NCBI GenBank assembly: GCA_017651565.1
Contig: JAGCCQ010000015.1
Location: 66,034-111,012 of the forward strand
DNA: 44,979 nt
From: Bacilli bacterium
GTDB lineage: Bacteria; Bacillota_I; Bacilli_A; RFN20; CAG-826
Direction: 5' to 3'
Both the position numbers and the translations under genes were made by a program. This document shows, in pieces, positions 264 through 29,214 of this stretch (position 1 is the first letter of the stretch; each line of letters opens with the position of its first letter). Below the pieces are notes generated by a model, which had not been told where the DNA came from, did no database searches, and was given only the letters and a program-made list of their open reading frames with translations.

Positions 264-264
264 G

Positions 265-11650: not shown

Positions 11651-11680
11651 AAAGAAAAAGGCTACTCTCACGAGTAACCT
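11651..11680 (-). terminator. Terminator of the opp operon
   Basis: On the minus strand AGGTTACTC (11672-11680) pairs with GAGTAGCCT (11659-11667) around the loop GTGA, with one G-T pair, followed by TTTTTC. The stem begins inside the oppF stop codon. Confidence 0.78.
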
Positions 11681-13202
11681 ATTTAGCAGCCTTTGCATCA
11701 AGTTCTTTGATTTCTTGACGATATTTTTCCATTTCTTCACTATTAGCTAAGATGAAGTGACCTGGAACAACTTCTTGGAAAGTTGGTTTTTCTTTTGAAT
11801 AGTCATGGGATGCCATTGGATTATAAACAATTCTTTGACGTGACTTTTCAGAAAGCGGATCAGGTTTTGGAATAGCGCTCAGTAAAGCTTTTGTATATGG
11901 ATGGAGAGGATGTTTGAATAATTCCTCACTAGTTGTAAGTTCCACCATTTCACCAAAATACATAACTGCGATTCTGTCACAGAAATACTTAACAACTGAT
12001 AAGTCGTGAGCGATGAACATAATTGTTAATCCCATCTCTTCTTTAAGTTCGTTAAGTAGGTTAATAATTTGAGCTCTAATTGAAACATCCAAAGCAGAAA
12101 TCGGTTCGTCACAAATTAAGAAACTTGGATTCATAACAAGTGCACGAGCAATACCGATTCTTTGTCTTTGACCACCACTGAATTCGTGTGGATAACGAGA
12201 TGCGAATTCAGGAATTAATCCGACCTTTTTCAAGACTTCTGCAACTTTTTTACTGTTTGCAAACTTATTGTGCATTCCTTGAATTTCAAGACCTTCTTCA
12301 ATAATATCTTGAACAGTCATTCTTGGATCAAGAGAATCGACAGGATCTTGGAAAATCATTTGCATTTTGCTCATGAGTTTCTTACTGACATGTCTATTAT
12401 CGAAATCAATTTGTCGGATTTCTTCTCTTTGTTGCATTGTAACTTCAGCAATATGTTGTCTGATTTCATTAATCTCTTTAGTGTATTTTTCAGTGATAGA
12501 AATTTTGCTACGCTCGATTTTTTCACTATCGAGATTCTTACTATCAGCAACTGCTTCGGCAGTCATTTGCTTAATAGACTTTTTAATATTAGCTAATTTA
12601 ACTAGAAGTTCGTTTTCTTTAACTTTAAAAGCGTGTTTTGCTTCTTGCGATTTTGTTGTTGCTTCTTCAATATCATCAATGCCTCTAACATCAAACAAAG
12701 TTTGTTTAAAGTTAAGTCTTAAATCGCCTAATTCATCAGTTAATTGATTCTTAGTTTCATTTAACTCACGAATTTTAGAAGCATATTTTGGACTAATAGA
12801 AGAGTAGAAAATTTCACTCTTCATAGTCTCTTGTAATTCTTTAATTTTTCTAACGCCTCTAACAGTAGTCCATTTAATTTCTTTTAAGTTCCAACGTTTT
12901 CCAGCAGCAATACGGTAACCTTCGAAATAAACAGAGCCAGAAGTAATGTTATAAAGTCTTAAAATTGATCTACCTGTTGTAGTTTTACCACATCCAGATT
13001 CACCAACAAGACCAAAACATTCACCTTTTTTGATATCGAAAGAGATATCATGAACAGCTTTTGTTTTAAAACTTGAAGCGCCATGACCAAACTTAAAGAA
13101 TTGCTTTAAGTGTCTAACAGAAAGTTCAATGTTATTATCTACAAGTTCTTGTCTATATGAAACTTTGCGAGTAACAACAATTGGTTGTTTCTTATCTTCC
13201 AT
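11679..13202 (-). CDS. oppF: Oligopeptide ABC transporter ATP-binding protein OppF with helical insertion
   Basis: A 507-residue ATPase energising peptide import. Walker A is GESGCGKTT (67-75), the Q-loop is QMIFQDP (281-287), the signature is FSGGQRQR (341-348) and Walker B is FLICDEP (361-367). Between Walker A and the Q-loop lies an extra segment of about 170 residues (105-272), rich in Lys, Glu and Ala-type heptads and probably helical coiled coil. OppF proteins usually have about 310-330 residues. The C-terminal region, where Opp/Dpp ATPases often carry a Cys cluster, has no cysteine. A strong AAAGGAGG site precedes the ATG, which overlaps the oppD stop by one base. Last gene of the operon. 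Confidence 0.92.
   Translation of the reverse strand: MEDKKQPIVVTRKVSYRQELVDNNIELSVRHLKQFFKFGHGASSFKTKAVHDISFDIKKGECFGLVGESGCGKTTTGRSILRLYNITSGSVYFEGYRIAAGKRWNLKEIKWTTVRGVRKIKELQETMKSEIFYSSISPKYASKIRELNETKNQLTDELGDLRLNFKQTLFDVRGIDDIEEATTKSQEAKHAFKVKENELLVKLANIKKSIKQMTAEAVADSKNLDSEKIERSKISITEKYTKEINEIRQHIAEVTMQQREEIRQIDFDNRHVSKKLMSKMQMIFQDPVDSLDPRMTVQDIIEEGLEIQGMHNKFANSKKVAEVLKKVGLIPEFASRYPHEFSGGQRQRIGIARALVMNPSFLICDEPISALDVSIRAQIINLLNELKEEMGLTIMFIAHDLSVVKYFCDRIAVMYFGEMVELTTSEELFKHPLHPYTKALLSAIPKPDPLSEKSRQRIVYNPMASHDYSKEKPTFQEVVPGHFILANSEEMEKYRQEIKELDAKAAK
12387..12890 (-). other. Insertion segment of OppF (about 170 residues, before the Q-loop)
   Basis: Encodes residues of about 105-272, absent from ordinary OppF proteins. 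It is highly charged with repeated hydrophobic spacing (for example the run from KIRELNETKNQLTDELGDL) and ends immediately before the strand that leads to the Q-loop. Boundaries are estimated by eye from the conserved ABC motifs. Confidence 0.75.
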
Positions 13203-15424
13203 TATTGAATGCCTCCTTTCTTGTGTGCTTTTAAGGAGTTTTCAATACGTTGTTTAACAATCTTAGGCATTTCTACCTTAGGTGCTCTTGGGTCTAATAA
13301 CCAAGTAGCAGCATAATGAGTATCACTAACCTTAAAATAAGGTGGTTCTTTCTTAAAATCGATTTCCATTGCATATTTACTTCTCAAAGCAAATGCATCA
13401 CCAACAGGTGGGTAAATCATATTTGGTGGAGTACCTGGAATAGCATCGAGTTTTTCATTACTGTTAACATCTGGAATAGATGATAATAAGGCCCATGTGT
13501 AAGGGTGTTTTGGATCATAGAAGATTTCTTCTTCTGTACCATATTCAACAATCTTACCAGCATACATAACCGCGACTCTATCGGCCATGTTAGCAACAAC
13601 ACCTAAATCGTGTGTGATAAAGATACATGATAAGTTACGTTCTTTCTTTAACTTATTAATAAGTTCAAGAATTTGAGCTTGGATAGTAACGTCTAATGCA
13701 GTTGTTGGTTCGTCACAGATTAAAATATCTGGATTCGCAGTTAATGCAATAGCAATAACGATACGTTGTCTCATACCACCTGAAAATTCAAATGGATATT
13801 GTTTGAAACGTTTTTCAGGATCCTTGATACCAACTTCAGCCATAACCTCTAAAGCTTTAGCTTTTGCTTCTGCTCTTGTGATTCTAATTGAAGAAATATA
13901 TTCATCTCTAGCAAGAGCAATATCTGCAATTTCTTTTCTATTAAGAGCAATGATTTTAGTCTGAATAGGAGCGATTTTTTCGAAATGGTCCTTTTTAACT
14001 TTTTCAAGAGCTGATTTTGAGTTAGATGAATTCTTTGCAGCGTTGTATGCTTCAAGATAATCTTTCTTAGCTTTTTCTAACTCAATATAATATTTTTCTC
14101 TTGTAATTGCTGCATCGCCTTTAATGCCAACAACTTTCTTTACATATTTTTCTCTTAATTCAGCCTTATATTTTGCAACCTTTTCTTTAGCAATCACTGA
14201 ATCAGCTTCGAATTTTTGTTTAGCAGCAGCAATTTTAGGTTTATATTCAGCGATTAATGCTGATTTAGTTTCATTATATTCCTTCTTTGCTTGTGCAATT
14301 AAAGAGTCATATTTTTCAGTAATTTTAGCTACGTTTTCTTTTGATTTTAAAGCTAATTCAGATTTTTCTTTTTTAATTTCTAATTTTTCCTTACCAAAAA
14401 CAAGATTTAATTCTCTAACTTTTACATCAGTAGCTGCTTTAACCTTTGAGATTTCGTATTCAAGTTTATATTTTTCTGCTTCTCTTGGTAAATATTTTTC
14501 TAATAAAGAGATTTTAGTATCAATGAATTTAGCTTTAACATCATTAACATCCGTACAATATTTTTCTTGTAAGTCTGCTAATTCTACTTTAATTCTAGGC
14601 TTACTTTCGTCATCTGCATCTTTTAATTCAGTGGTTTTTTCAGCCTTTCTCTTTAAATAAACAGCCTTTATATCGTTGATTTGTTCTTTTTTCTTAAAAT
14701 CGGCTTCGCTTAATAAAGTTTTAAAGTTAGCAATATCTTCGGTTTTAGTCTCAGTAGGCAAAGATGCAATACGTCTATCGAATTCTTCTTTTAATTCAGC
14801 AATAGCGTAATGTTCTTGGCTTTTCAATTCGAAAATAGCAGCACCACAATTTTGTTTTGCTGTGTAAATTCTTCCACCAACTTCATTAGAAACTTCATTC
14901 TTTGCTAAAGCAATGTGTTTCTTCTTTTCTGATTTTAAGAATTTAATATTTTCTGTACCTTTTGCTAATCCTGTTTTTAATTCAGTTTGAGTGTTTCTAT
15001 AAGCAGTAAGAGAATCAGCGACTAATTCGTCATACATTCTCTTAGTTCTAGAAGCGTTAATTAACATACCTTCTGTAATTTGTTTACCAATTCTGACGAT
15101 TGGGTTTAAAGAAGATAATGGGTCTTGGAAGATCATACCAATTTTGTGACCACGAATTCTATGGAATTCATCTTCGCTAATCTTGGTTAAATCTTCACCT
15201 TCATACATGATAGACCCTTGAACAACACGTCCATTTTTAGACAAGATGCCCATGATAGCTTTATTTGTAACTGATTTGCCTGAACCAGATTCACCAACGA
15301 TACATAATGTTTCACCTTTATATAAATCAAATGAAACACCACGAACTGCTTGGACATAGCCATGGTCAGTGGAGAAGTTAACTTTTAAGTCTTTAACACT
15401 TAAAACAATTTGTTTGTTTTCCAT
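13202..15424 (-). CDS. oppD: Oligopeptide ABC transporter ATP-binding protein OppD with very long helical insertion
   Basis: A 740-residue ATPase, about twice the family's usual 330-350. Walker A GESGSGKS (44-51) and the Q-loop GMIFQDP (96-102) are normal. Residues about 124-515 are an inserted, highly charged Lys/Glu/Ala segment predicted to be mostly coiled coil. The domain then resumes with AEAKAKALEVM (about 518), signature FSGGMRQR (547-554) and Walker B ILICDEP (567-573). The insert therefore lies in the helical subdomain between Q-loop and signature, a different place from the OppF insert. The C-terminal tail retains the family framework (YPPVGDAFALRSKYAM) but lacks every cysteine of the usual [4Fe-4S]-type motif. 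It partners OppF and is spaced one base from oppC. Confidence 0.93.
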   Translation of the reverse strand: MENKQIVLSVKDLKVNFSTDHGYVQAVRGVSFDLYKGETLCIVGESGSGKSVTNKAIMGILSKNGRVVQGSIMYEGEDLTKISEDEFHRIRGHKIGMIFQDPLSSLNPIVRIGKQITEGMLINASRTKRMYDELVADSLTAYRNTQTELKTGLAKGTENIKFLKSEKKKHIALAKNEVSNEVGGRIYTAKQNCGAAIFELKSQEHYAIAELKEEFDRRIASLPTETKTEDIANFKTLLSEADFKKKEQINDIKAVYLKRKAEKTTELKDADDESKPRIKVELADLQEKYCTDVNDVKAKFIDTKISLLEKYLPREAEKYKLEYEISKVKAATDVKVRELNLVFGKEKLEIKKEKSELALKSKENVAKITEKYDSLIAQAKKEYNETKSALIAEYKPKIAAAKQKFEADSVIAKEKVAKYKAELREKYVKKVVGIKGDAAITREKYYIELEKAKKDYLEAYNAAKNSSNSKSALEKVKKDHFEKIAPIQTKIIALNRKEIADIALARDEYISSIRITRAEAKAKALEVMAEVGIKDPEKRFKQYPFEFSGGMRQRIVIAIALTANPDILICDEPTTALDVTIQAQILELINKLKKERNLSCIFITHDLGVVANMADRVAVMYAGKIVEYGTEEEIFYDPKHPYTWALLSSIPDVNSNEKLDAIPGTPPNMIYPPVGDAFALRSKYAMEIDFKKEPPYFKVSDTHYAATWLLDPRAPKVEMPKIVKQRIENSLKAHKKGGIQ
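13880..15055 (-). other. Insertion segment of OppD (about 390 residues, after the Q-loop)
   Basis: Encodes residues of about 124-515, dominated by Lys, Glu, Ala and Leu with repeated EKYDSLIAQAKKEYNET-like helices and few Gly or Pro. It projects from the helical subdomain between the Q-loop and the signature motif. Boundaries are estimated by eye. Confidence 0.78.
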
Positions 15425-15425
15425 A

Positions 15426-17513
15426 TTATTGTTCTTCTCCTTTCAATGATGGGTTGACAGCATCACGTAATCCATTACCGAATAAGTTAAATGAAATCAT
15501 CAGTAATGCGATAACGACTGCTGGGAATATTAATAAGTAAGGGTGAATAGTTAATTGAGTTTGGTTATCTGAAAGAATAACACCTAATGATGACATACCT
15601 TTCAAACCTAAACCTAAATAGGAAATTGTAGCTTCAGAGAAGATAACACTAGGAATCATTAAAACAGATGATGTAATGATTGTACCCATAGCGTTAGGCA
15701 AGATGTGCTTTGCAATAAGTCTAGCGTCACTTGCACCTAAACTTCTAGATGCTAAAACATATTCTCTTCCTCTAAATCTATAGAATTGAGTTCTAGTTCT
15801 TGCAGCAGTTGAAATCCATCCGGTCAAACATATTGCAAGACCGAAAGTAAAGAAATTCTGGCCCAAATGCAAGATGGTTAACGTCATGACAACAATCCAT
15901 GGAAGACCAGATAAAACATCTGTAATTCTTTCCATAACTAAGTCGACAGTTCCACCAAAATAGCCTGAAATAGAACCGTAAATTAAACCGATAATGAAAC
16001 AAACAGCGAATGAAATAATACCAAGTAACAATGAAGTTCTTAAACCTTCGAAGACATATTTAAACATGTCGCGTCCGCCTTTATCAGTACCCATAAGGTA
16101 TCTTGGCATTGAATCAAATTCAAAATATCTATAGTAAATTACTTTTCCGTAGATTTTGATTTCCGCTTCATCATTAATTGTGATTTTAGTAATTTCGGTT
16201 ACTGGACATTTTTCCGATTTTCTTTCAAATTTGAAATCAGAAACGTAGAATTTACCATCATCATCAACTTCAAAGTTATATGAGAAAGTACACCATTTAT
16301 TTCTTTGATATGTTTTCATATGGCTTTCAGTTACAGGATATTTTTCTTGGTTAATTTCCATTTCACCGAATGTAGCTTCATATGAGTCGTAAACGAAGTC
16401 GCAATAAATAACTTGAGCCATATGCAATTTTTTATTACCTGTACAGCTCCAGTATTTTGTATTAACTGTTAAGTCTTTATTTTGTGTTTGACGGAACATT
16501 AACTCGTTAGCGTCATCAAAGTTAGATCCTTCAATCAAGTCTTTTAATGCATTTTCTGTTTCAAATTCGAGCGTTTTAATTAAAACACACTTATTGTGTT
16601 TTTCATCATCGCCTTTCTCAAGTTCTAATGAGAAATAAGCGTTTTTGAATACAGAAATGTTATTTGTAGTGACATATTCATCAGCTTTAATAATTTCAGT
16701 TAAGTTTAAAGAACTAATATCAAATTTTGAGTTCTTTGCTAAAAGTTCAACAGATTTTTTCTCTGCTTCTCCATCAACTTCAACGTAATAATTAAATACA
16801 AATGATACTTCACCTTGTACATAGTTTTCAGGGAAGAAAGCTTTTTCACCATCAGCTGCTTTGAGTTTATCTAAATCATAAACATCAAAAGCTTTTAAAT
16901 AAATATCACCGCTATCAATGTCTAATTCTTTATAAGTGGTTGTAAACATTTCAACTTTAGTTTCATTAGCTTCACCACTAATACCAAATTGTACATATCC
17001 ACCATGTGCATATTCATTTCTATCTGATGTATAAACAGTTTCTGTAAATTCTTTCTTACTTACAGCTTGTTTGACAAAATCATCAGGTGAAGGCCACCAG
17101 AATTCTTGCTTTTCTTCTTCTGTTGTTGCATTTGGATGTCCGCCTACATCAACAGCGATTTTAGTCCATTTTTTAGTGCCATCCCAGAATCCTGTTCCAG
17201 CATCAAATAATTTTGGTTCAAGGAATGTTCTATAAGCGTACTCTTTAGAGTTATCATTATTCTTTCCACCAGTAAAAATAGGAACGAAAACAGATAACAA
17301 AAGAATTGTTCCTAAGATACCTGCTGCTACAACAGATGATTTGTTCTTAGAGAATCTCTTTAATGAATCTCTAAAGAATGTTGTAGGTCTAGTTTGGAAT
17401 TTTTGTTCATGAACTCTTTCACTATTATCAACAAGTTTGAAATCTTTTTCTGTAATAGTCTCTTCTTGTGCTTCAACAGGGAGAGTTTTAAATTCGAAAT
17501 CTTTGTTTTCCAT
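15426..17513 (-). CDS. oppC: Oligopeptide ABC transporter permease OppC with large extracytoplasmic domain
   Basis: A 695-residue permease; the usual length is about 300. A cytoplasmic N-terminus leads to the first membrane helix (about 60-80). Then comes an insert of about 380 hydrophilic residues (about 84-465) that by topology is outside the membrane. The standard permease resumes at YLMGTDKGGRDMFKYVFEG (about 472-490) and continues through five helices. The EAA loop is EYVLASRSLGASDARLIAKH (584-603 by my count), which contacts an ATPase. The insert is rich in beta-prone Glu/Lys/Tyr sequence and matches no domain I know; it could dock OppA or the accessory lipoproteins. It is translationally linked to oppB by a one-base overlap. 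Confidence 0.92.
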   Translation of the reverse strand: MENKDFEFKTLPVEAQEETITEKDFKLVDNSERVHEQKFQTRPTTFFRDSLKRFSKNKSSVVAAGILGTILLLSVFVPIFTGGKNNDNSKEYAYRTFLEPKLFDAGTGFWDGTKKWTKIAVDVGGHPNATTEEEKQEFWWPSPDDFVKQAVSKKEFTETVYTSDRNEYAHGGYVQFGISGEANETKVEMFTTTYKELDIDSGDIYLKAFDVYDLDKLKAADGEKAFFPENYVQGEVSFVFNYYVEVDGEAEKKSVELLAKNSKFDISSLNLTEIIKADEYVTTNNISVFKNAYFSLELEKGDDEKHNKCVLIKTLEFETENALKDLIEGSNFDDANELMFRQTQNKDLTVNTKYWSCTGNKKLHMAQVIYCDFVYDSYEATFGEMEINQEKYPVTESHMKTYQRNKWCTFSYNFEVDDDGKFYVSDFKFERKSEKCPVTEITKITINDEAEIKIYGKVIYYRYFEFDSMPRYLMGTDKGGRDMFKYVFEGLRTSLLLGIISFAVCFIIGLIYGSISGYFGGTVDLVMERITDVLSGLPWIVVMTLTILHLGQNFFTFGLAICLTGWISTAARTRTQFYRFRGREYVLASRSLGASDARLIAKHILPNAMGTIITSSVLMIPSVIFSEATISYLGLGLKGMSSLGVILSDNQTQLTIHPYLLIFPAVVIALLMISFNLFGNGLRDAVNPSLKGEEQ
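16119..17264 (-). other. Extracytoplasmic insertion of OppC (about 380 residues)
   Basis: Encodes residues of about 84-465 between the first membrane helix and the GTDKGGRD segment where OppC proteins normally continue directly. It is hydrophilic, mixed charge, with many aromatic residues and no membrane span, so it should form a folded domain on the outer face. Boundaries are estimated. Confidence 0.78.
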
Positions 17514-18550
17514 TATTTCTTTTCCCCCATTCTGATACGTGGATCAATAAAGCCATAAGATAAGTCAGTAACAATTCCAGCTAAAAGTGAAATTGTTGTG
17601 AAAATAGCCATATCAACAAATAAGACGTTATAGTCTTTATTGTTTAAAGCGTAGATATATAAGTCACCAATACCATTGATGTTATATAAGTTCTCCAAAA
17701 TCATAGAACCGGAGAAAACACCAATAAATTCTGCTAAAACTGAAGGTAAAATTGGAACGAAAGCATTTCTTAATGCGTGGCGAGTAATTGCTTGACGACG
17801 TGTCAAACCTTTAGTTCTTGCTAAGATTAAGTATTCACTAGACATAACTTCGCAAAGTTCTGCTCTAACTGATCTACAATAGCCACAAATAGAACCAAAT
17901 GATAATGACAAAACAGGGATGATGTAGCCTAAGAATTTTTGGCTAGTAGCAGCATCACTTGAAGGCCATCTAAGTGGTAAATTGCCCTTAAATGCAAAGA
18001 AATAAATCATGAATGAAATAATAACGAATGACGGGATTGAAATAAAAATCATAACTAAAGTTGAGATTGTGTGATCAATCCAAGTATTTTTATTTAAACC
18101 CGCAACAATACCTAATAAAATTCCTAAAGGAACTGAAATAAGAACTGAAATAATGTTAATGGAAACAGATACTGGTAATCTTTCCATAATAATTGTAGTT
18201 GTAGAATAATTTGGTTTAATAACTGTAGATGTACCCCAGTCCCAAGCAGTTACAATTCTTTTTAACCATGCGAAATATTGATCCAAAATTGGAGTTTGGT
18301 AGAAATAATGGTCAACATTATCAAGGTCAGTAATTTTTTCTAATAAAGTACCGTATTGTGGAGATTCCACCATACAGTCAATAACGTAGCCTTTTTCTAC
18401 TTGATCAAAATAGAAAGCTAATCTTGTATTTTCCTGTGGAGCAAAGATTTTTCCACCAGGTAATGATTTAACCAAGAAGAAAGTAAGCGTAATGATAATA
18501 AACGCTGTGATAAAGGCTAGCAAGATTCTTTTAAGCGAGTATTTTAGCAT
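17513..18550 (-). CDS. oppB: Oligopeptide ABC transporter permease OppB
   Basis: A 345-residue permease with six predicted helices. The N-terminal MLKYSLKRILLAFITAFIII helix and the long outer loop up to RIVTAWDWGTS are typical of OppB; that loop is about 30-40 residues longer than usual. The EAA loop is EYLILARTKGLTRRQAITRH with ALRNA after it. The C-terminus SYGFIDPRIRMGEKK is canonical. It follows the upstream lipoprotein by 18 bases with a very strong AAGGGGG ribosome site, and its stop overlaps the oppC start. It forms the pore with OppC. Confidence 0.94.
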   Translation of the reverse strand: MLKYSLKRILLAFITAFIIITLTFFLVKSLPGGKIFAPQENTRLAFYFDQVEKGYVIDCMVESPQYGTLLEKITDLDNVDHYFYQTPILDQYFAWLKRIVTAWDWGTSTVIKPNYSTTTIIMERLPVSVSINIISVLISVPLGILLGIVAGLNKNTWIDHTISTLVMIFISIPSFVIISFMIYFFAFKGNLPLRWPSSDAATSQKFLGYIIPVLSLSFGSICGYCRSVRAELCEVMSSEYLILARTKGLTRRQAITRHALRNAFVPILPSVLAEFIGVFSGSMILENLYNINGIGDLYIYALNNKDYNVLFVDMAIFTTISLLAGIVTDLSYGFIDPRIRMGEKK

Positions 18551-18568: not shown

Positions 18569-20371
18569 CTAGTTTTTATTAATTTCGATTGTAAATTCAA
18601 CTGCAAATTTGCCGTTACCTGCAAAGTATGAAGCAATGGTAACTACGAAGTTATCATTTGAGTATTTTGCACTGCTAACAGGTCTATTTTGAATTGTAAG
18701 TTCTTTTACTGGTTCAACACATGTATAACCTGCTAAAGCAGTACTAACGAATTTTTCTAAAGCTTCTTCTTTAGATTCAACTTCGTTTTCACCTTTAGTT
18801 GGGTGTGCTTCTGTTTGTCTGAATTGATTGAATTTAATTTCACCATCAGCTGCGCCACCACTATAAACGTTGTAATTACTCTTTGTATAATTGCCATCAC
18901 CTAAGTACATGTCGTAGATTCTAAATAATTCTTCTTCAGCTGGTGAACGTAATGTTGGAGCTTGGAAACGATAATAAACCATGAAGATTCCTGTCGTTAC
19001 AGGATCGCCATTAGATACTGTGTAAGAAATACCATTTTCGATATAGTCAGTAACTTCAATAATTAAGTCACCGACATATTTTTTATCTTCGATTGTATAG
19101 ATATTTACGCCAACTTCTTTTCTACCATATTTATCAACTCTAGTAGTCTTAACAAATGAATCTTTTGCGTTTAATTCTCCGATAAAAGTATTGTATTCGT
19201 CTTTGGAACATGGGATTTCAAGTTCGAAGCATAAATCGTCTTCACCATGTAACCAAGGATACAAAGAACCGTAATTAGCTAATGATAAGCAGTCTGGTTC
19301 GATGTTTGGCATCAAGAAGTAATCAACTGCTAATGGAGCTTCAGTTTCAAGAACACCATTTGCATGAACGCCGTTCTCAGTTTCATAACCGAATAAGAAC
19401 ATTTTAATGTAGTCATACACTTTGCCAATCATTAAGTCATCAAGCGTGAATCTTTCATTAACTTCCTGACCTAATGCCGTTTCAAATGTGAGACTATTTG
19501 CAATATATCTAACAATTAAGTCATTATTATTGTTTAATCCAATAACTAATGTATCTTCAACTCCAGCGTAATATAAGTTAGTAACACCACCATATGAATC
19601 CATGTAAGGGTATGAAGCGCAATATTTGTAACAAATTAAGTTTTTCATTCCTTGACCATATAATTCTTTGTAATCTGAAGGAATGCTACCTTGTTCATAG
19701 AACTTATAGGTTACTTTAGCCGCCTCACCATCTTGGGCGATTGTTTTTGTTACTTGATATTCATCTAACAAAGTTAAATATTCATTTAGTTTCTCTTTTG
19801 AAGCATCTTTTAATTCAATCCAGTAATCAGTAACTTCACCAGCATCACTAACTTCTTGTTTGATTTCCATACCTTTCATCTTTGGATAGTAGGTTCCAGA
19901 TAATGAGCTAAGAGAAGTAGCATTGAAGAACAATTTTTCATCTCTAGACCAATCAATGATTTCAATTTCATATGTTACATAGGAATTGATTCCTAATTCA
20001 CTATTAATATAATAAGCTTTGATTTTTTGTGTACCAGGTGTCTTCATTGAAGAAGGTTTAGAAGTGGTAACATTTTCTGTAATAAAAGAAGTACCATCAC
20101 TAAAATTAACGTTTAAAACAATTCCGTTATTGGAAAATTCTTCACCACAATAAAAAACAGTTTTTGGATATTCTTTAATTGTTAAATTTACAAACTTTAC
20201 AGGAACTGGCTCTGGCTCTGGCTCAGGTTGTGGTTCAGGCTCTGGTTCTGGAGTTGGCTCTGGAGTTGGAGTTGGCTCTGGAGTAGGGTCTGGAATTTCG
20301 CCACCATCTTTACATCCACCGAGGAGTGAGAGTGCTAATCCTGCTAATAATATTGCTCTAAACTTTTTCAT
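18569..20371 (-). CDS. Surface lipoprotein with proline-rich stalk and Ig-like domain, first gene of the oppBCDF unit
   Basis: About 600 residues. The signal peptide MKKFRAILLAGLALSLLGGC ends at lipidated C20; the ATG at 20371 is chosen because AGGTG lies seven bases upstream, whereas a GTG nine bases earlier overlaps that site. A Pro-Glu-Pro stalk (27-58) is followed by a bacterial Ig-like domain (about 60-140, with KEYPKTVFYCGEEF and GIVLNVNFSDGTSF). The remaining 460 residues are a mixed alpha/beta region I do not recognise. It opens the operon with oppB, oppC, oppD and oppF and is probably an accessory peptide-binding or docking protein for the importer. That role rests on gene order, not on homology. 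Confidence 0.8.
   Translation of the reverse strand: MKKFRAILLAGLALSLLGGCKDGGEIPDPTPEPTPTPEPTPEPEPEPQPEPEPEPVPVKFVNLTIKEYPKTVFYCGEEFSNNGIVLNVNFSDGTSFITENVTTSKPSSMKTPGTQKIKAYYINSELGINSYVTYEIEIIDWSRDEKLFFNATSLSSLSGTYYPKMKGMEIKQEVSDAGEVTDYWIELKDASKEKLNEYLTLLDEYQVTKTIAQDGEAAKVTYKFYEQGSIPSDYKELYGQGMKNLICYKYCASYPYMDSYGGVTNLYYAGVEDTLVIGLNNNNDLIVRYIANSLTFETALGQEVNERFTLDDLMIGKVYDYIKMFLFGYETENGVHANGVLETEAPLAVDYFLMPNIEPDCLSLANYGSLYPWLHGEDDLCFELEIPCSKDEYNTFIGELNAKDSFVKTTRVDKYGRKEVGVNIYTIEDKKYVGDLIIEVTDYIENGISYTVSNGDPVTTGIFMVYYRFQAPTLRSPAEEELFRIYDMYLGDGNYTKSNYNVYSGGAADGEIKFNQFRQTEAHPTKGENEVESKEEALEKFVSTALAGYTCVEPVKELTIQNRPVSSAKYSNDNFVVTIASYFAGNGKFAVEFTIEINKN
20198..20293 (-). repeat. Proline-rich stalk repeat (Pro-Glu/Thr) in lipoprotein gene
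   Basis: A simple repeat of six-base units (variants of GGCTCT and GGTTCA on the plus strand) encoding Glu-Pro and Thr-Pro dipeptides. Copy-number change would lengthen or shorten the stalk by whole residues without shifting frame. Confidence 0.8.
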
Positions 20372-20397
20372 TTTAATCACCTATAAACGCGTGCATT

Positions 20398-20495: not shown

Positions 20496-21824
20496 TTATA
20501 AATCGAATGCTGAATCAACTTTTTGGTAATTATCTTTGTTTGGATAAACAAGGTCAACATTGGTTCTATATGTGTAATCAATTGTGTACTTGTTAACATA
20601 ATTATCACCATTAAGAGTGTAAGTCATTGTTTGTTCAAAGTGTTCAGCAGAAAGCATATTGTTTTCAAATAAGTATCTAATGTAGAACTCAATTCTAAAT
20701 TGTGTTCCTATTGGAATTCCATGACCTGATTCATCTGCTGCATCAGCAATATCGTTTCCCGCTTCATTGAGGTCAAACGTTAATTGTCCTGGCACATCTT
20801 CAAAGTATGCATAGTGACGATTATGAGTAGTAGTTGTTAAATATTCAGCAACCTTGTTAGCGTAAATATCTTCTTCAACACCAGTTAAAATCTTTGCACC
20901 ACTAACAAAGAATTGATCACAAACTGACTTTAATGCTTCAATTTTGCCTTGGCCCATAAAGTTAGATTGGTTAACGCTCATATAGTTTTTGACCTTACCT
21001 GAACTCTTAAATAAGAATGTTTCATATTGGTCAGTTGTGTAGAACGTATAATGGGTTTTGCTTGGAACAGCCGAACCATCTTGAACTCTAAATTCTTGAG
21101 TATCCATGCTCAAATCTAGATAAGCATTTTTTCTTGAAGAAGTAAGACTTTCAAGATAATAAGTTCTTGAATCAAGTACACCATTTTTAGTAATTGTGTT
21201 ATCAAAAGTTTCAAAGCAGTAATAAGATTCAGGAACGGCAAAGCCTTCACTAGCTTGAGCAGCCATAATTTCCTCTAATCTATCTTTGCAAAATTGGAGT
21301 TTTTGATCCTTTAAGTTGCTAACAACAACACGTGTAGAAGCTTTTACTGATCCATCACCATTAGCAACAGTAACTGTTGTAATACCTTGGCTTACTGCAG
21401 TAATTTTTCCGTTTTCATCTACTGTGGCAATTTCTGGATTTTCACTTGTCCAAGTGATATCTCTTTTGCCTGGTCTTTTTGGATAAACAGTAGCCTTAAT
21501 AGTAACATCTTCATTAAAAGCAGTATTATCTTTTTTATCGCTGTAATATAACGAAACACATTGTTTATCTAAAGTAATACCTGTGACTTTATCTTCGATT
21601 GTTGCAGGAATTTGGAAATCTGCAGGAACACTTTTAACAACAGTTTTATCTTCATAAACTGTTTCTGTAGGTGTTTCTGTCGGAGAAACATCCGTATTAG
21701 TTTTTCCAGGTTCCTGTTGTTGTGGATTTTCAGGTTTTGGTTCTTCTTCGTTTCCCTTACAACCAGCTAAAACCATTGATGAAATTGCTAATCCTAAGAT
21801 TGATAATTTAGCTTTCTTTTTCAT
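20496..21824 (-). CDS. Lipoprotein with Big_2-type Ig domain, downstream of oppA
   Basis: A 442-residue lipoprotein; the signal peptide ends at VLAGC with C22 lipidated. After a Pro/Thr/Glu-rich linker (about 23-62) comes a BIG2-type domain (about 80-165) with its hallmark DITWTSENPEIATVDENGK and the continuation ITAVSQGITTVTV. The C-terminal 270 residues are of unknown fold. It is the last gene of the protease-oppA unit, 27 bases after oppA, with an AAAGGAG ribosome site and a terminator downstream. Position suggests an accessory role in peptide capture; no enzyme motif is seen. Confidence 0.78.
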   Translation of the reverse strand: MKKKAKLSILGLAISSMVLAGCKGNEEEPKPENPQQQEPGKTNTDVSPTETPTETVYEDKTVVKSVPADFQIPATIEDKVTGITLDKQCVSLYYSDKKDNTAFNEDVTIKATVYPKRPGKRDITWTSENPEIATVDENGKITAVSQGITTVTVANGDGSVKASTRVVVSNLKDQKLQFCKDRLEEIMAAQASEGFAVPESYYCFETFDNTITKNGVLDSRTYYLESLTSSRKNAYLDLSMDTQEFRVQDGSAVPSKTHYTFYTTDQYETFLFKSSGKVKNYMSVNQSNFMGQGKIEALKSVCDQFFVSGAKILTGVEEDIYANKVAEYLTTTTHNRHYAYFEDVPGQLTFDLNEAGNDIADAADESGHGIPIGTQFRIEFYIRYLFENNMLSAEHFEQTMTYTLNGDNYVNKYTIDYTYRTNVDLVYPNKDNYQKVDSAFDL

Positions 21825-21851: not shown

Positions 21852-24800
21852 TTAATATTTTTGTTGATCTTGAGTCATTGCAACACTAATTGTGTTAGCG
21901 ACAGGTGTTCCACCTTTAATTGATAAAGTATAAGTTAATTCAAAGTTCCAGAATGAACCTTGGCTAGAACCAGTGTAGTAAGATCTACTGAATGGGTGTT
22001 CAATATAACCTTCTTTATCTGGATCAGTCTTCTTTTGAGCTGTTTTGATTTCTTCATCAATAGTTGCTGCTAAATCTGCAGGAACAGTAACAGTAACAGC
22101 TTTCTTGTCTTTATCATAGTTGAATGAAACATCATGAGTTTCACCGTTGACAACAAATAATGCAACTTTAGAAACATTTAATTCGATATCATCGACGTTA
22201 ACAAATTCAGTTGGGATTTCAACTTTGAAACCTTCATATAATTTATCTGTAACATCACCACTTAATGTTGTTGGGTTATCTAAGTAACAATTCTTGATTG
22301 AGTTAACAACTTTACCATCTTCAACGATTCCGCCGTGATCAGCAACTGTCCATAAAGCATCAAATGAGAATTTGTGGCCATCATAGACGATTGGGTTCTT
22401 TTCATCAACGAGAGAAGTATCAACACCCCAGTTAAGAGTAAATCCTGAAGAATTATCGCTCTTTAATACTTCTAGGAAGTTTAATGGGTTATAAGTGTTA
22501 CCAGAAATAGCACCGAATGCTAAGTCAAATTGGCCCGTCATCATGACGTCGTTATAAACTGCTTGCCAGTCACTTGATGGGTTTGGTTGTTCAACTTCTA
22601 ATTTAACTTTACCGCTAGAAACTGATTCATCATTGAATGCACTTTCGAAGTATTCTTTAATCTTAGTACCATATTCGTTGATATCGTTTTGGTACATCCA
22701 GTTAATTCTAATTGTAATAATAGTTGGTTTGCTCTTAGTACCATCTTTAATAGCGCCTTTACGTTTTAATTCAGTATATGCTGCTGTGAAGTACTTAATA
22801 GCTTTATCTCTGTTATAACCATAGTCATCATTACCTTCAGCATCAACATTGTGCATTGCTGCAACAGCTTTTTTGTGTTGTTCTGTTGAGTTGTAAGCAA
22901 CACCATTTTCAGGGTCACTTAAGTATGCGTTTGAGAAGTAATCGATTGATGGTTGAGCACCTTGAATATCAGCAAATTCTTTACGGTTAATTGACCAATA
23001 TAAACCATTTAAGAAGTTATCATTACTCATCCATGGCTTACAGACGTATTTGCTTGCATCATCAGTAACACAGATTTTACCATTGCTACCGAATAAATAA
23101 TCCCATCTTTCTTGTGTACAAGAGTTGACGTTTAACTTGAATGTTGAGTCACCTTTAGTAATTAATGTTCTAGTTCTCTTGCCAGCAGTTGTTGTTTTAG
23201 AAGCGCTCTTTTCTTCGCCAATATGTAAAGCAGGAACACCACATGAATCTAATAAATCAGAATAGAATGCTTCATATAAAGCATCAGGGTTTTCTTGAGC
23301 GTTCTTATATGTAGTAATTTTAATACCTGGAATTCTATATCTTAATGGGTATGTTTGTCTTTCAAACCAAGTATCATTTTGCTTAAAAGCAATAAATTCA
23401 TCATTCCATTCTTCAAGGTAGTAAGCACCTAAAGATAATGTTGTATCGTTTGGTGATAATTTAACTTTATTTCCACCACCAATATCAAAATTTTCTTTAC
23501 CTTCACCATAAACTTTAGCACCGTTTTTAACCTGACCATTGCCAAGCATTTGAACAAATGCTTGAGGAAGAGGTGAATATAAGTTGCTTGAAAGTGTGTG
23601 CATTGCTGTGAAATCATCAATTTCATTGATTAATTCAATTTCGATGAATGAACCATTTGCATCTGAGCCATAAGAGAAACCTAATTCCCCAGAATCCTTC
23701 ATATCATTCCAAGTTTTATCGACTGTTGCTTGATCGATATCTGAGTTCTTCGTTCTATTGAAATAGCTTGAAGCGCCTTTGATACCATAAGTCTTATCAT
23801 TAGACATTTCACGGCCTCTAGTAAGAGAGTTAGCGCCAGTTAAAAGCATTTTAAGAGAGAATTCATAGTCTTCAATTTGAACTTCTCTATTGTCCCAATC
23901 TGCTTTAAATCTACCATTTGTACGATATTTGACTCCGTCAGCGCCAGTTTTAACATAAATTCTCCATCTCTTGTATAAATTAAGAGGGTTTGCTGCGCCT
24001 TCATAAACTGGAATAGGTCTTGTGAAAGTTTTTCCATTAACTTTGTCTTTAGCTAAAACTGGGTACCAATCGTAACCATTTTTAGTTGCGTTCATTTTAG
24101 TTCCCCAGTAAGGAGAAGTAACGTATCCAGCAAGTCCCGAAACTTGAGAGCCTGTATCATCAGCAGCATTAATTTTTCCTGGGTTAGAGGATTGAGAGCT
24201 GTGATAATAACGTTTGTATGCCTCAGTTGCGCCTGGTAAATCATCTGTAATATTACCTTCAGAAAGAATACCAAAACCATAACCAGTAATGTATTCTTCT
24301 GTAGGAATTTCTAATCTTGATGAATATTTAGCATAGCCACCATTTTCAAAAAGTGTAATACCAGTTAAATGTGATTCGACAGCATATTTTTCTAATTTTC
24401 CAAGAATGTCTGTACGTGTTTTAATTGCTTCTTCACCTGAGCTAGAAGCATAGTTGAAACCACCATTTGCATTTGTTGCAGGTGCATTAATTGTGATATT
24501 TAAAACTTTTTTAGTATCACCATAGTTAACAAGGAAAGTAACTTTGCCAACATCAACACAAGTAAATTCACGAGTTAAACCTTCTTGTGCGCCTAATGAA
24601 ACAAGTGGCGAATCATTGTTAACTTTGAATTCAAACTTGCTATTATCAGCGTTACCTTTTGTAACTGTGACAACAATTTTATCTTTATCACCTTTTTCGA
24701 ATGTTGTTTTGCCAGACTCAGTTTGAATCAAATATTCAACCTTTTCTACATCATCTTTTGGATTATTAGGATCGTCACTACCTAGATCATCAGAATCATT

Positions 24801-24899
24801 AGGGTCAACGACAGGTGTATCACCAGGATCTGAACAAGCTGTAAAACAACCAAGAACAAGGGTTGTAAATATTAATTTACATGCTAATTTCTTTTTCAT
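21852..24899 (-). CDS. oppA: Oligopeptide-binding lipoprotein OppA, enlarged
   Basis: A 1015-residue solute-binding lipoprotein of the SBP_bac_5 type, nearly twice the common 540-600. Signal peptide to CFTAC with C22 lipidated, an acidic Asp/Asn/Pro linker, then an Ig-like segment (about 52-138). The binding protein follows: PLNLYKRWRIYVKTGADGVK, the region with EDYEFSLKMLLTGANSLTRG, the PLRYRIPGIKITTYKNAQEN block, WSINRKEFADIQGAQPSIDY and KAIKYFTAAYTELKRKGAI are family landmarks. An extra beta-rich C-terminal part (about 880-1015) is unusual. Its start overlaps the stop of the subtilisin gene (TAATG), so protease and peptide receptor are coupled. Confidence 0.9.
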   Translation of the reverse strand: MKKKLACKLIFTTLVLGCFTACSDPGDTPVVDPNDSDDLGSDDPNNPKDDVEKVEYLIQTESGKTTFEKGDKDKIVVTVTKGNADNSKFEFKVNNDSPLVSLGAQEGLTREFTCVDVGKVTFLVNYGDTKKVLNITINAPATNANGGFNYASSSGEEAIKTRTDILGKLEKYAVESHLTGITLFENGGYAKYSSRLEIPTEEYITGYGFGILSEGNITDDLPGATEAYKRYYHSSQSSNPGKINAADDTGSQVSGLAGYVTSPYWGTKMNATKNGYDWYPVLAKDKVNGKTFTRPIPVYEGAANPLNLYKRWRIYVKTGADGVKYRTNGRFKADWDNREVQIEDYEFSLKMLLTGANSLTRGREMSNDKTYGIKGASSYFNRTKNSDIDQATVDKTWNDMKDSGELGFSYGSDANGSFIEIELINEIDDFTAMHTLSSNLYSPLPQAFVQMLGNGQVKNGAKVYGEGKENFDIGGGNKVKLSPNDTTLSLGAYYLEEWNDEFIAFKQNDTWFERQTYPLRYRIPGIKITTYKNAQENPDALYEAFYSDLLDSCGVPALHIGEEKSASKTTTAGKRTRTLITKGDSTFKLNVNSCTQERWDYLFGSNGKICVTDDASKYVCKPWMSNDNFLNGLYWSINRKEFADIQGAQPSIDYFSNAYLSDPENGVAYNSTEQHKKAVAAMHNVDAEGNDDYGYNRDKAIKYFTAAYTELKRKGAIKDGTKSKPTIITIRINWMYQNDINEYGTKIKEYFESAFNDESVSSGKVKLEVEQPNPSSDWQAVYNDVMMTGQFDLAFGAISGNTYNPLNFLEVLKSDNSSGFTLNWGVDTSLVDEKNPIVYDGHKFSFDALWTVADHGGIVEDGKVVNSIKNCYLDNPTTLSGDVTDKLYEGFKVEIPTEFVNVDDIELNVSKVALFVVNGETHDVSFNYDKDKKAVTVTVPADLAATIDEEIKTAQKKTDPDKEGYIEHPFSRSYYTGSSQGSFWNFELTYTLSIKGGTPVANTISVAMTQDQQKY

Positions 24900-27800
24900 T
24901 ATTTATTTCCTCCGAGAGCTTTTCTTTTTTTAAGAAGTAAAGCAACGCCAAATGCAGAAATAGTTAAAATTAATGCACTTGAAGATGCGATGTTGCCACA
25001 GCAGCCTTTTTCTTCAGTTACTGTTTTGTTATCATCTGGTTTTTGTTCTGTTTCTTCAGGCTTATCTTCTGGTTGTTCAATTGGTTTTTCAACTGGAACT
25101 TTTTCAGTTGTTTCAACTAATTTATAGTTGCCTTTATATGAAACGCCTTCTAATTCGATTGGTGTCTCAGTGCCATCGAAATCAATATCGACCCATTCTA
25201 AAGAATTAGATTCTTCGATATATTTGAAATCGTATGAAACAAGAAGATTTCCACCTTGGACAATTTCATATTGTTCAAAGTTATCAGGATTGAAGTGAAT
25301 AATCATACGGTTAACACCATAAGCACCATCAGTGAGTTCAAGATACAATCTTGGACGTGCTGTTGCGTTTGGATCGTTAACATCAGCAACATCATTCATA
25401 GAAGCAAGAACATCTTCTTTACTTAAATCTAAATAATATTGTTTATTTGTCTCATCATAATAAACATCTTCATAGCCATAGCCAACAACAGCTGAAGCTA
25501 CTTTATAATCATCGATGTTAATACGAACTCTTGTTTGTCCATCTTTTTCATAAGTAGAAATAGAAGAAACAGTTGGAGGAGTAGCATCAACAACAAATTT
25601 ATAAGACGACGACACCCATGAGCCATCATATGAGAGTTGATAGTTGAATTCGATTGTATATTCATCATCAGCAAATGGTTCATTTGTTTCAATATTATAT
25701 AAAGGAATAATAGCGTATGCTCTATGAGCAACGGAGCCAGAACCTAAAAGGCCAGAATCTACGTGTGATTTATAAAGTGTCCATTTGCCATCAGTATCAC
25801 CGTAAAGTGAATCTTCTAAAGCAGATGCATAAACAATTTCACCAGCACTATTCTTGATTTGGAAATTATTATTTGCAACAGAACGCATAATAAATTGTTG
25901 TATAATCATTGTGTTAGTTGCTTTTGGAGAACCAACATAGATGCAATCTTTTGCAGAATCATAATAAGTTTCATCGCTTGGATCTTTACCAACTGAGCGG
26001 AAACCAGTTAATTTATCAAATGAAGTTTCAGAGTGGAATACTTTTGAAGTATCGATATCTGTAAGTTCATCAGCATAACCAGCAACCCATAAAGAGCCAA
26101 AATCAGCATTATTCTTACCTAAAAGGGATTTAGTTAAGTCATTAACTAAGTCTGATGGGTATGAAACGCCTTCAACTTTTTCAAATTCAAATGGTTCGAA
26201 TACTCTAGCATCTCTTAATGTTTGACCATCTTTCTTAACTGCTAATGAGTAGAAACCTAAGAATGGGATTGATAAATTTGGATCAGCGTTATCGTTAGCA
26301 ATTAATTCAACGAAGCCTTCGATAGCACAGCCATATTCAAAAGCTTCAGCGATTTTTGTTCTTTCTTCTTCTGGAATTGACCATTCATTAATATCAATTT
26401 TAGTTGCAACATTACCACCAGGAATTGTAACTGTTTGACCAGTTAAACCTTGATAGATAACGACATCGCTAATTGATTGATATGTGAAGTTTGGAAGAGG
26501 TTGCCAATCGAATCCTGATGCAGCAGCATTGTAATAGTAGCCTGGAGCAATGATCTTTTTATTTGTATCATTTTCACAGTCTGCTTGTGTTTCATAGTAT
26601 TCGATTTGCTTTGTTAATTTGACACAGTCAAATTGAGAAGCTTTACCTTGTGAAGTATTTCTAGTTGCGACATAACCTTGTCCAACAACATATTGCTTTT
26701 TCCAATAAGTGAAACCACCAAGTTTAGAAATATCATCAACTTCACCAGTGTAGTTATATTTATCTTGAATAACCTTGTTATTTTCTTCTAATGCTGGTCT
26801 CATTACTGTTAATTTAACGTTGAATGATTTATCAGCACTGGCTTCATTATAAGCATTGAATGACATCTTTAACTTACCGTTAGCGATATCATTATTGTTT
26901 CTAAGTTGAATTTTTGATTTACCGATTTCATTACCTTCAGTATCTAAACCGTTGAGGTAAACTTTAGTATTGAGAGCATCTGTTAAATCAATTAAACCAG
27001 CACCTTGAATACGTGGAGAAGTTGGAGAAATTTTACCATCTTCTGGATTTGCCTTAGCATCATTCATAGGATTTGCTGTAGACATAAGTCTCATATCAAC
27101 TGTCTTACGATATGCATAGTAATTTTCAAGATCTGCATTTGTGAGATCGTAATTGTCATCAAAGATGACTTTTGCTCTTTCACCTAATACTAATGATTGT
27201 GCACCAGCATAGTTTGGAGCAGCCATTGATGTACCAGATAAGTATTCATATGTAGAAACTGAAGTATATTGCTTTTGTTCTTTCTTTTGAGGTGGAATAG
27301 CACCTTTAATAGAATCACCAGGAGAAGCAACATCTGGTTTAATATCGTAACTGAATCTAGCACCATCACTACTGAATGTAGAAATTGTCTTTGCATTTGT
27401 ATTAATAGAAGCTTGTTTAGAAATGAATTCGAATGTACCTTCACCTTGAGCTTCAAGTAATACCTTGTCTTTATAAAGGACTAAAGCAGCAGGGATTGAT
27501 GGGTCGAATCCATCACCGAAACTACATCTGAAGTTAAATTCATTTGATGTAGGGTCGTTGTTAATAATCATTAAACCAATAGCTTTTTTGGAAAGAGCAA
27601 CATTGTATTTATCAATGAAGGGTGTAGAACCACGGTTAACTACTGCGATTTTTCCTTCAACTTCTTTGCCATTATAATCTGAAGCTGTACCAAAGTTTGG
27701 AATATAAACCCATTGAGCTTTGCCGTCAGCATCAGCAACGTCCTTTAAGTACATTTGCTTATCTTCTGGATATTCATCATCATAACCTTCTCTGTTGACG

Positions 27801-29155
27801 ATTTGATCTTGATAAGCAATGTTTGTAACGTTATTTTCGCTATCAGTGAATTTTACTGCGTTTTCGAAATAAATTGAGTTAGGCTGAGCACTTGCAACGA
27901 TAGTAGCATCACTATTGTTTGCATAAGAGCCTAAGATACCTGTTTCTACTGTATCTGTTGTCCAAGCACCATAACCACCAGTGAATGAGTATGAAGCTTT
28001 ACCAGCGTTACCTGCAGAAATAGATGTCATAATTCCAGAGTCTTTTGCAAGTCTAGAAAGAGTTCTCATAACAAGTGAATCTTGATCAAAGTCGTCCAAG
28101 TCACTACCTAATGACATGTTAATTCCATCAACGCCTAATGTAATGCAGTCTTCAAGAGCGTTAAGGATAACACTATCACGTCCACCTGAACTATTGCTGT
28201 ATCCTAATGCTTTAGCTGTATCATCAGCAACAAATTCAGTGAAGACCTTCATACAAGCAAATTGACACTTAGGAGCTAAGCCTTTGTATTCATTTGCGTT
28301 ACCACCTGCTAAAGATGCAACGTGAGTACCGTGGTATGAAATGTTTGAAATAACATCACAGTCTGGGACTCCATCTCCACCAATTGTTGGAGCAGTTCCA
28401 CCGTAATCATAGTAGAATGGGACTTTGGTATTGAAATATAAAGAACCTTCGTAGCCTTTTCCTTTGGAAGAATCATATCCTGCTTTTGCGTGTAAATTGG
28501 AATTTTTGAGTTTATTCTTTACGAATGTGTAATCAAATCTTTCAATTGTACCGGAAGGAAGTGGTTTGAATGTAGCATGACTCCATGCTGGGTCACTACC
28601 AACTTTGCCTTTGAGGTAGAATTCATTGTCAAGAATTGCGATAACGGTACCTTCACCTTCGGAAGAGTTAGCTGGCTTACGTAATGTAGTAGCTGTGATA
28701 TTTTCTTCTTCAGTTCCAGTATCTTGTTGTTCTTTAGGTGTAATTTCTTCAGTAGCAGCAAGAACTCCAGCTGTTGAATATGTGACTGTTTCATTACTCT
28801 TTGAGAAACGAACTTTATCAACATTAACAAGACCTACACCATCAAGTTTTCTAATCTCATCAACTTTATTAGAACTGACATCAATAAGGATTGCGTTATT
28901 TAATACACTGTATCTATCGATTAATTCAACGTTTTTAGTGACATTCTTTCTGATTGAATTCAAAACATTATTTTGTGAAAGAGTGATTTCATCTTCAGAT
29001 AATCCGTTGAGTCCTTTTTTGACTTCAACAATAACTCTTACACGTTCTGAATCATCAGCGCTGTTAACACTAACCCCCTCAGTATCAGATGATGTGATAG
29101 CTGCGCCAGACAATGCAAGTACAGCCATTAAACCTGTAAATAAGTATTTTTTCAT
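24899..29155 (-). CDS. Giant cell-envelope subtilisin-like serine protease (S8) with PA domain
   Basis: About 1418 residues from the ATG at 29155, which follows AAAGGAG; the open frame continues 26 codons upstream but lacks a signal there. Order: signal peptide (1-20), an inhibitor-I9-like propeptide (about 38-118), and a catalytic domain with D176 (VIAILD), H275 (HGTHVA), oxyanion N383 (SAGNAG) and S643 (GTSMAAP). A PA domain (about 490-580, with GKIAVVNRGS) sits inside the catalytic domain, as in C5a-peptidase/lactocepin proteases. Long Fn3-like beta domains follow, then a Pro/Glu linker and a tail GCCGN, hydrophobic helix (1394-1408) and KKRK. No LPXTG is present. It should cut extracellular proteins and feed the adjoining OppA. 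Confidence 0.93.
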   Translation of the reverse strand: MKKYLFTGLMAVLALSGAAITSSDTEGVSVNSADDSERVRVIVEVKKGLNGLSEDEITLSQNNVLNSIRKNVTKNVELIDRYSVLNNAILIDVSSNKVDEIRKLDGVGLVNVDKVRFSKSNETVTYSTAGVLAATEEITPKEQQDTGTEEENITATTLRKPANSSEGEGTVIAILDNEFYLKGKVGSDPAWSHATFKPLPSGTIERFDYTFVKNKLKNSNLHAKAGYDSSKGKGYEGSLYFNTKVPFYYDYGGTAPTIGGDGVPDCDVISNISYHGTHVASLAGGNANEYKGLAPKCQFACMKVFTEFVADDTAKALGYSNSSGGRDSVILNALEDCITLGVDGINMSLGSDLDDFDQDSLVMRTLSRLAKDSGIMTSISAGNAGKASYSFTGGYGAWTTDTVETGILGSYANNSDATIVASAQPNSIYFENAVKFTDSENNVTNIAYQDQIVNREGYDDEYPEDKQMYLKDVADADGKAQWVYIPNFGTASDYNGKEVEGKIAVVNRGSTPFIDKYNVALSKKAIGLMIINNDPTSNEFNFRCSFGDGFDPSIPAALVLYKDKVLLEAQGEGTFEFISKQASINTNAKTISTFSSDGARFSYDIKPDVASPGDSIKGAIPPQKKEQKQYTSVSTYEYLSGTSMAAPNYAGAQSLVLGERAKVIFDDNYDLTNADLENYYAYRKTVDMRLMSTANPMNDAKANPEDGKISPTSPRIQGAGLIDLTDALNTKVYLNGLDTEGNEIGKSKIQLRNNNDIANGKLKMSFNAYNEASADKSFNVKLTVMRPALEENNKVIQDKYNYTGEVDDISKLGGFTYWKKQYVVGQGYVATRNTSQGKASQFDCVKLTKQIEYYETQADCENDTNKKIIAPGYYYNAAASGFDWQPLPNFTYQSISDVVIYQGLTGQTVTIPGGNVATKIDINEWSIPEEERTKIAEAFEYGCAIEGFVELIANDNADPNLSIPFLGFYSLAVKKDGQTLRDARVFEPFEFEKVEGVSYPSDLVNDLTKSLLGKNNADFGSLWVAGYADELTDIDTSKVFHSETSFDKLTGFRSVGKDPSDETYYDSAKDCIYVGSPKATNTMIIQQFIMRSVANNNFQIKNSAGEIVYASALEDSLYGDTDGKWTLYKSHVDSGLLGSGSVAHRAYAIIPLYNIETNEPFADDEYTIEFNYQLSYDGSWVSSSYKFVVDATPPTVSSISTYEKDGQTRVRINIDDYKVASAVVGYGYEDVYYDETNKQYYLDLSKEDVLASMNDVADVNDPNATARPRLYLELTDGAYGVNRMIIHFNPDNFEQYEIVQGGNLLVSYDFKYIEESNSLEWVDIDFDGTETPIELEGVSYKGNYKLVETTEKVPVEKPIEQPEDKPEETEQKPDDNKTVTEEKGCCGNIASSSALILTISAFGVALLLKKRKALGGNK
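24902..25006 (-). other. Cys-containing C-terminal anchor signal of the subtilisin
   Basis: Encodes the last 35 residues: a GCCG motif (C1385, C1386), a short Ser-rich bridge, a hydrophobic helix and a KKRK cluster. This three-part layout is like C-terminal sorting signals, with cysteines where LPXTG would be. Whether it is processed or stays as a plain membrane anchor is not known. Confidence 0.55.
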
Positions 29156-29168
29156 CTTTTCTCCTTTC

Positions 29169-29185: not shown

Positions 29186-29214
29186 AAAATATATTGCGTA
29201 TATAATATAGATTA

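Follow-up and report, generated by a model that had tools for sequence, protein, structure and literature searches.

A large folded insert in the first loop of an OppC permease of Bacilli, a candidate docking domain for OppA

Why does the OppC subunit of an oligopeptide importer hold 386 additional residues between its first two transmembrane helices (TM1 and TM2)? The question arises from an opp operon in a 44,979-nucleotide stretch of DNA from a Bacilli genome (GCA_017651565.1), hereafter called the window. A reading made from the sequence alone had placed an outer domain of 380 residues at 16119-17264, in the first loop of OppC, had recognized no domain in it, and had suggested that it could receive OppA or gate large peptides. 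The genes of the operon are as follows, each with the basis of its assignment.

24899..29233, minus strand: subtilase (S8 with PA domain), directly upstream of oppA, with a one-base overlap with its start
21852..24899, minus strand: oppA-like lipoprotein, 1015 aa (similarity to relatives)
20496..21824, minus strand: Big_2 lipoprotein, 442 aa (Pfam; similar frames in 28 of 50 related loci)
18569..20380, minus strand: lipoprotein, member of the tightly packed gene run
17513..18550, minus strand: oppB, 345 aa, no comparable insert (Pfam, NCBIfam)
15426..17513, minus strand: oppC, permease with inserted ectodomain (single uninterrupted ORF, 695 aa)
13202..15424, minus strand: oppD, 740 aa, internal insert (Pfam, NCBIfam)
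11679..13202, minus strand: oppF, 507 aa, internal insert (Pfam, NCBIfam)

The minus-strand run from the subtilase through the OppA-like protein, the two lipoproteins and OppB to OppC, OppD, and OppF is tightly packed, and the oppC ATG shares one base with the oppB stop. The A, B, D, and F genes of an opp operon are thus all present, OppA by similarity to relatives only: the OppA-like lipoprotein of the window gave no Pfam match, and seven of the eight OppA relatives tested match SBP_bac_5. In 17 of the 50 related loci, OppA is preceded by subtilase-like pieces that the end of the locus truncates. The inserts of OppD and OppF are long and charged and lie within the ATPase domain; in four relatives (L035, L041, L045, and L050 in our locus numbering), one frame of 1126–1283 aa matches both ATPases. 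Beyond the operon, the window encodes lipoproteins at 29280-30920 and 42568-44643 that match M6-type peptidases weakly (one below and one just over the cut-off), an exported protein of 1089 aa with an InlB/Flg_new-type repeat (32484-35753), and a lipoprotein-like protein of 1354 aa whose N-terminal region contains collagen-like GXX repeats (GDKGDKGDNGD...; 36905-40969).

The permease core of OppC is intact on both sides of the insert, as the sequence-only reading had stated. In Pfam, OppC_N (PF12911) matches residues 45–83 (E 2.3e-07) and BPD_transp_1 (PF00528) residues 509–691 (E 5.1e-27), both over the cut-off, with no match over the cut-off between them. NCBIfam models of the OppC/DppC/NikC type align from residue 458–472 through the C terminus; the score against the Opp3C equivalog NF045475 is 276.4 bits, under its curated cut-off of 450. 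The AlphaFold model superimposes on Escherichia coli OppC (8z21_B) with a Z score of 26.9 and an rmsd of 3.2 over 276 of 278 residues (model range 43..688), which indicates a complete core on either side of the insert. Solved OppC and DppC structures (8z21, 8z1y, 8j5q, and 8wd9) share this core with Z scores of 23.5–26.9 over 13 rows, but their TM1–TM2 loop is short (the 8z21 chain aligned to the core is 278 residues long), whereas the window OppC has an extra 386 residues. The parts of OppC were assigned as follows.

17274..17342, minus strand: TM1, residues 58–80 (AlphaFold-model helix, hydropathy peak 61–79, OppC_N 45–83)
16107..17264, minus strand: ectodomain insert, residues 84–469, given as 84–465 in the sequence-only reading (Pfam gap, homology limits, relatives, AlphaFold)
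17175..17222, minus strand: base motif, residues 98–113, LEPKLFDAGTGFWDGT in the window (alignment)
17031..17264, minus strand: first part of the insert, base part a, residues 84–161 (profile matching, conservation)
16527..17030, minus strand: predicted beta-sandwich, presumably of jelly-roll type, residues 162–329 (predicted structure, profile matching)
16107..16526, minus strand: last part of the insert, base part b, residues 330–469 (profile matching, predicted structure, conservation)
15441..16106, minus strand: permease core TM2–TM6, residues 470–691 (Pfam, homology, superposition)

The limits first proposed, 16119-17264, correspond to OppC residues 84–465, exact to the residue. Because similarity to solved OppC and DppC picks up again at residues 469–472 (phmmer), the insert is better given as 84–469 (16107-17264). 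Base composition is alike in the insert and the core (GC 0.31 versus 0.35). The position of TM1, the next long helix at residues 483–519 in the AlphaFold model (hydropathy agrees), and the canonical topology of OppC together place the insert on the extracellular side, where the sequence-only reading had put it on the same topological grounds. That the insert folds as a domain, sits on a complete permease, and faces outward by OppC topology is well supported.

A single scan of genome contigs brought up 411 stretches, of which 401 were relatives. Eighty were kept; 30 of them match only from residue 424 onward, and the insert was measured in the remaining 50 loci, which come mostly from gut metagenome-assembled genomes labelled Bacilli, Bacillales, Erysipelotrichaceae, Acholeplasmataceae, and others. 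In 49 of the 50, there are 308–492 residues at the insert position (contig ends truncate L035 and also L039, which has the 308), and L051 has 140 there. Identity to the window is 48–90% in the core and 19–58% in the insert. The dN/dS ratio of the insert (0.22–0.39, versus 0.07–0.10 for the transmembrane core; Nei–Gojobori, five close pairs, with dS near saturation) points to purifying selection on the insert. Of 392 genomes sampled from the wider group, 35 match the insert profile; all matches listed from these 35 genomes fall within frames of at least 449 aa, and none of them is a free-standing copy of the insert. That the insert is an assembly or fusion artefact, which would have undone the earlier reading, has a virtually nil probability, since 49 of the 50 loci, all from other records, have the same architecture and further genomes give full-length matches. 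From alignment A1, the truncated L035 and L039, the short L051, and L052, a near copy of L015, were left out; alignment A3 also leaves out L011, L017, L027, and L030.

Eleven insert positions are identical in all 47 rows, and seven of them (K101, L102, G108, W110, D111, G112, and T113) lie at 101–113, directly after TM1. The others are G172, Y378, G383, and P437, only G172 being in the sandwich. Conservation is lower in the sandwich than in the first part of the insert, and the sandwich may therefore have a different job. Across the class, the best OppC frames listed range from 291 to 942 aa. In 85 OppCs, the loop was measured: it has 17–44 residues in six and 135–614 in 79, and in a core-only tree (a quick one, with SH-aLRT support only and one very long outgroup branch), a branch with an SH-aLRT value of 90 separates these 79, as one group, from the rest. 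Loops of 135–205 residues match the family profile near both ends only, with none matching across 201–360, and loops of 225–260 residues do not match across 221–300. Those of 315–500 residues match nearly throughout (0.73–1.00 of rows per stretch), and of the five loops above 500 residues, 40–60% match in the middle. Many short-loop relatives thus still match the start of the insert (base part a) and its end from about residue 400 (part b), with no match to the sandwich at 162–329. A loose motif after TM1, LPP[RK]..LE.LGIFDGT or LxPKLF.AGTGFWDGT, composed after inspection of the sequences, occurs in 75 of the 79 insert-bearing rows, versus 8.4 of 79 in shuffles; narrower patterns occur in 44 and 38 of 79, and GxG[FWY]WDGT in 50. 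The loose motif is already found in L134, whose loop has 44 residues.

The insert of the window is one rung in a ladder of loop sizes and not a one-off. The ends that adjoin TM1 and TM2 are best explained as the old TM1–TM2 loop of this OppC group, with the sandwich between them. Judging from the sequences, the motif-bearing loop may have lengthened at its ends and taken in the sandwich in between, and base parts a and b would together form one base domain. Five OppCs (L102, L103, L123, L130, and L131) have loops of 526–614 residues, longer than that of the window. The window's own genome also contains a second opp set (L107, contig C61) with an ordinary OppC of 318 aa, which has a 17-residue loop; in this set, the OppD-type frame has 629 aa and the OppF-type frame 867 aa.

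Neither Pfam, nor a PDB profile search, nor NCBIfam gave a credible identity for the insert by sequence. At an E value of 0.1 or better, eight Pfam families were matched, each in one of 43 insert members. A phmmer match of OppC 243–383 to a manganese-binding protein (6nsi_A, E 6.7e-05) did not recur with family profiles and is likely due to chance. The idea that the insert duplicates an operon lipoprotein or OppA was also rejected (hhalign probabilities of 0.1–0.2%). The AlphaFold2 model of the whole OppC (47 rows) has a mean pLDDT of 82.6 and a pTM of 0.69, with ten-residue mean pLDDT values of 83–96 across residues 91 to 470. Because the 50 best Foldseek rows for this model were mainly ABC permeases, with a few weak beta matches, the insert was folded alone (43 insert rows; pLDDT 92.5, pTM 0.84). 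The prediction, a check that had been proposed with the earlier reading, is a confident, almost all-beta domain, mostly of strands with a few short helices.

Foldseek with the insert alone found no match at an E value of 0.001; the best, at 0.0026, was a virus capsid with an rmsd of 20 Å. None of 988 chains reached a Z score of at least 8 with the insert model. The highest values were those of the InhA2 entries 4yu5 and 4yu6 (7.6 and 7.3), followed by 6.6 and lower. The fold matches fall on residues 79–246 of the insert model, that is, OppC 162–329, and are largely beta-sandwiches, which we take to be of the jelly-roll type. The model suggests that OppC 162–329 is a beta-sandwich of a common kind, with Z scores within the range of common arrangements. 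Residues 488–639 of the InhA2 zymogen (4yu5 and 4yu6) have a strand arrangement similar to this region, but with 6–8% identity, a Z score in the same common range, and no sequence evidence. The earlier statement that no domain could be recognized thus stands for the sequence, whereas residues 162–329 of the model resemble a common fold, and no credible Pfam or PDB sequence match makes the insert a known, unrelated secreted domain.

What might such a domain do? In partial Mantel tests on the same 23 taxa, with OppC-TMD plus OppB distances controlled, the divergence of the insert tracks that of OppA (r 0.58, p 0.0005) more than that of OppD (0.07, p 0.29) or OppF (0.09, p 0.23), bearing in mind that such tests overstate significance on trees. 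The value for OppA is 0.59 once OppD and OppF are also controlled, and that for OppD–OppF, taken as a known pair, is 0.45. In 12 taxa, insert–OppA is 0.58 with lipoprotein LP442 controlled, and insert–LP442 is 0.32 without control for OppA and 0.04 given OppA. The contrast is weaker in larger, unequal taxon sets, where insert–OppA is 0.43 (n 34), insert–OppF 0.30 (n 34, p 0.0005), insert–OppD 0.25 (n 37, p 0.006), and insert–LP442 0.48 (n 17). These distance tests dropped rows under set lengths (850 aa for OppA, for example) and rows whose TMD distance to another row was within 0.02. The lengths of OppA and the loop give raw Spearman coefficients of 0.57 (n 68) and 0.49 (n 64), although one OppA list was still growing slightly in its final round (81 to 82). 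When the insert-bearing group was analysed by independent contrasts, no significant correlation remained (r 0.13, p 0.12), and co-growth of OppA and the loop is therefore not counted as evidence. An OppA-like frame is present in the operon in 43 of the 50 loci.

Here, we propose that the insert is an ectodomain that docks or clamps OppA, a reading to which we give a probability of about one-half. The insert would dock and clamp the oversized OppA lipoprotein (about 1000 aa) over the channel mouth, widening the contact made by the short OppC loop in ordinary Opp systems, and peptides, some of them cut by the neighboring subtilase, would be passed on without loss. The complete core, the confident fold, the seven invariant residues just after TM1, the co-divergence with OppA, and the persistence of an OppA-like frame in most loci favor this reading. 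Published models of related importers are consistent with it: in the excerpted text of PMC11192437, an AlphaFold model sets the TM1–TM2 part of pneumococcal AmiD against lobe 2 of the binding proteins and suggests that AmiC residues 31–278 might clamp the binding protein, and in that of PMC12136057, the cleft of DppA receives a scoop of E. coli DppB that lies between TM1 and a short helix. The suggestion that the insert could receive OppA thus gains indirect support, from its co-divergence with OppA and from the AmiD-loop model (PMC11192437); direct contact with OppA and an effect on transport would follow from the proposed arrangement. Against it stand the correlations with OppD, OppF, and LP442 in the larger sets, the length relation that vanished once phylogeny was removed, and the lower conservation of the sandwich.

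The fold matches would suit another function, in which the sandwich binds a polysaccharide or other surface ligand and so anchors the transporter on feed particles, on mucus, or on the coat of the cell itself, OppA docking being unchanged. Many of the best 50 matches are carbohydrate-binding modules, GH11/GH12 enzymes, xanthanase, or sialidase domains, and the remaining rows include meprins, an InhA2 peptidase, and a virus capsid. However, every Z score is below 8 and every Foldseek E value above 0.001, no carbohydrate-binding module appears by name among the Pfam matches of the 43 insert members at E 0.1, and G172 is the only invariant residue in the sandwich; we consider this function quite unlikely. 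It is more doubtful still that the ectodomain itself binds peptides, or gates or unfolds long ones, beside or instead of OppA. Its expected position above the channel and a neighborhood rich in proteases would fit, but the OppA-like frame is retained in most loci and the insert profile has no similarity to OppA.

The cell-wall setting offers a further explanation, namely that wall loss freed outer permease loops to drift larger, for stability, for shielding, or for nothing specific. The window's own genome, 74% complete, yielded neither MraY nor MurG. With absence defined as no match at E 1e-20, MurG was missing from 37 of 47 genomes with an OppC frame of at least 540 aa, from 18 of 29 with 426–539 aa, and from 4 of 34 with less than 426 aa, frames running from stop to stop and kinship not being allowed for. 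This table covers the 110 of 161 genomes with an OppC match for which the best match was listed; the 51 outside it include families f10 and f11, mycoplasma-like in look, and f11 matches contain in-frame TGA. A first look at 37 chosen genomes, kept out of the count, went in the same direction. In the excerpted text of a published survey, most of the RFN20 genomes surveyed are without a complete peptidoglycan pathway (PMC7301438). Families f25 and f26, however, combine MurG with long inserts, so that MurG loss is not necessary. Nor is wall loss sufficient: the mycoplasma OppC model MMSYN1_0166 (NCBIfam) has only 307 positions, unlike the window OppC, so mycoplasma OppC has no comparable ectodomain, and mycoplasmas lack a cell wall. 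Purifying selection, the high-confidence fold, and the co-divergence with OppA also speak against mere drift, which we regard as unlikely. We offer a wider picture only tentatively, the odds being clearly against it: in uncultured gut Bacilli, which mostly have no MurG and so are probably wall-less, the opp operon may be a surface protein-eating machine composed of the subtilase, a giant OppA, and an OppC loop grown stepwise into a standing receptor for OppA, and perhaps also for long peptides, at the channel.

How does the OppC of the window compare with known systems? Its ATPases are closest to mycoplasma proteins, both below the cut-off: OppD to MMSYN1_0167 (242–733 on 81–557 of 561, through the insert; NCBIfam) and OppF to MMSYN1_0168 (best stretch 319–494, behind the OppF insert). 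No report of an OppC ectodomain was found among the literature matches listed. The P2 loop of MalF is also extracytoplasmic and meets the binding protein, but belongs to another subunit and lies between TM3 and TM4. AmiC, which we take to be an OppB-type subunit, carries its ectodomain on that subunit, whereas in the window the insert is on OppC and OppB has 345 aa. A search for AmiC-like long OppBs gave frames of at most 411 aa among the matches listed; to our knowledge, no Lactobacillales are in the genome group drawn. In one genome (G257, contig C44), an OppB-type frame of 486 aa, possibly a B subunit with an extended first loop, lies beside an OppC-type frame of 510 aa. The DppB scoop, in the excerpted text of PMC12136057, is likewise a part of the permease outside the cytoplasm that contacts the binding protein, on the other subunit. 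The nearest counterpart is ECD1/ECD2 of Streptococcus pneumoniae AmiC (residues 31–278), a large extracellular part in the first loop (excerpted text of PMC11192437), and the window OppC has such a large first-loop insert, outside by topology only. By this analogy, the insert most likely works like the AmiC ectodomain but on the C subunit; common descent is not claimed. The C subunit of Opp importers, like the B subunit, can evidently bear a large ectodomain, in host bacteria many of which seem to have lost the wall. The graded loops of 17 to 614 residues let the transition from permease loop to domain be followed, and the pairs of OppA and OppC ectodomain offer testable cases for how importers hold their binding proteins. 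In the wider picture of a protein-eating machine, the OppC insert would be a second solution of the AmiC kind, reached independently and carried by the opposite permease subunit.
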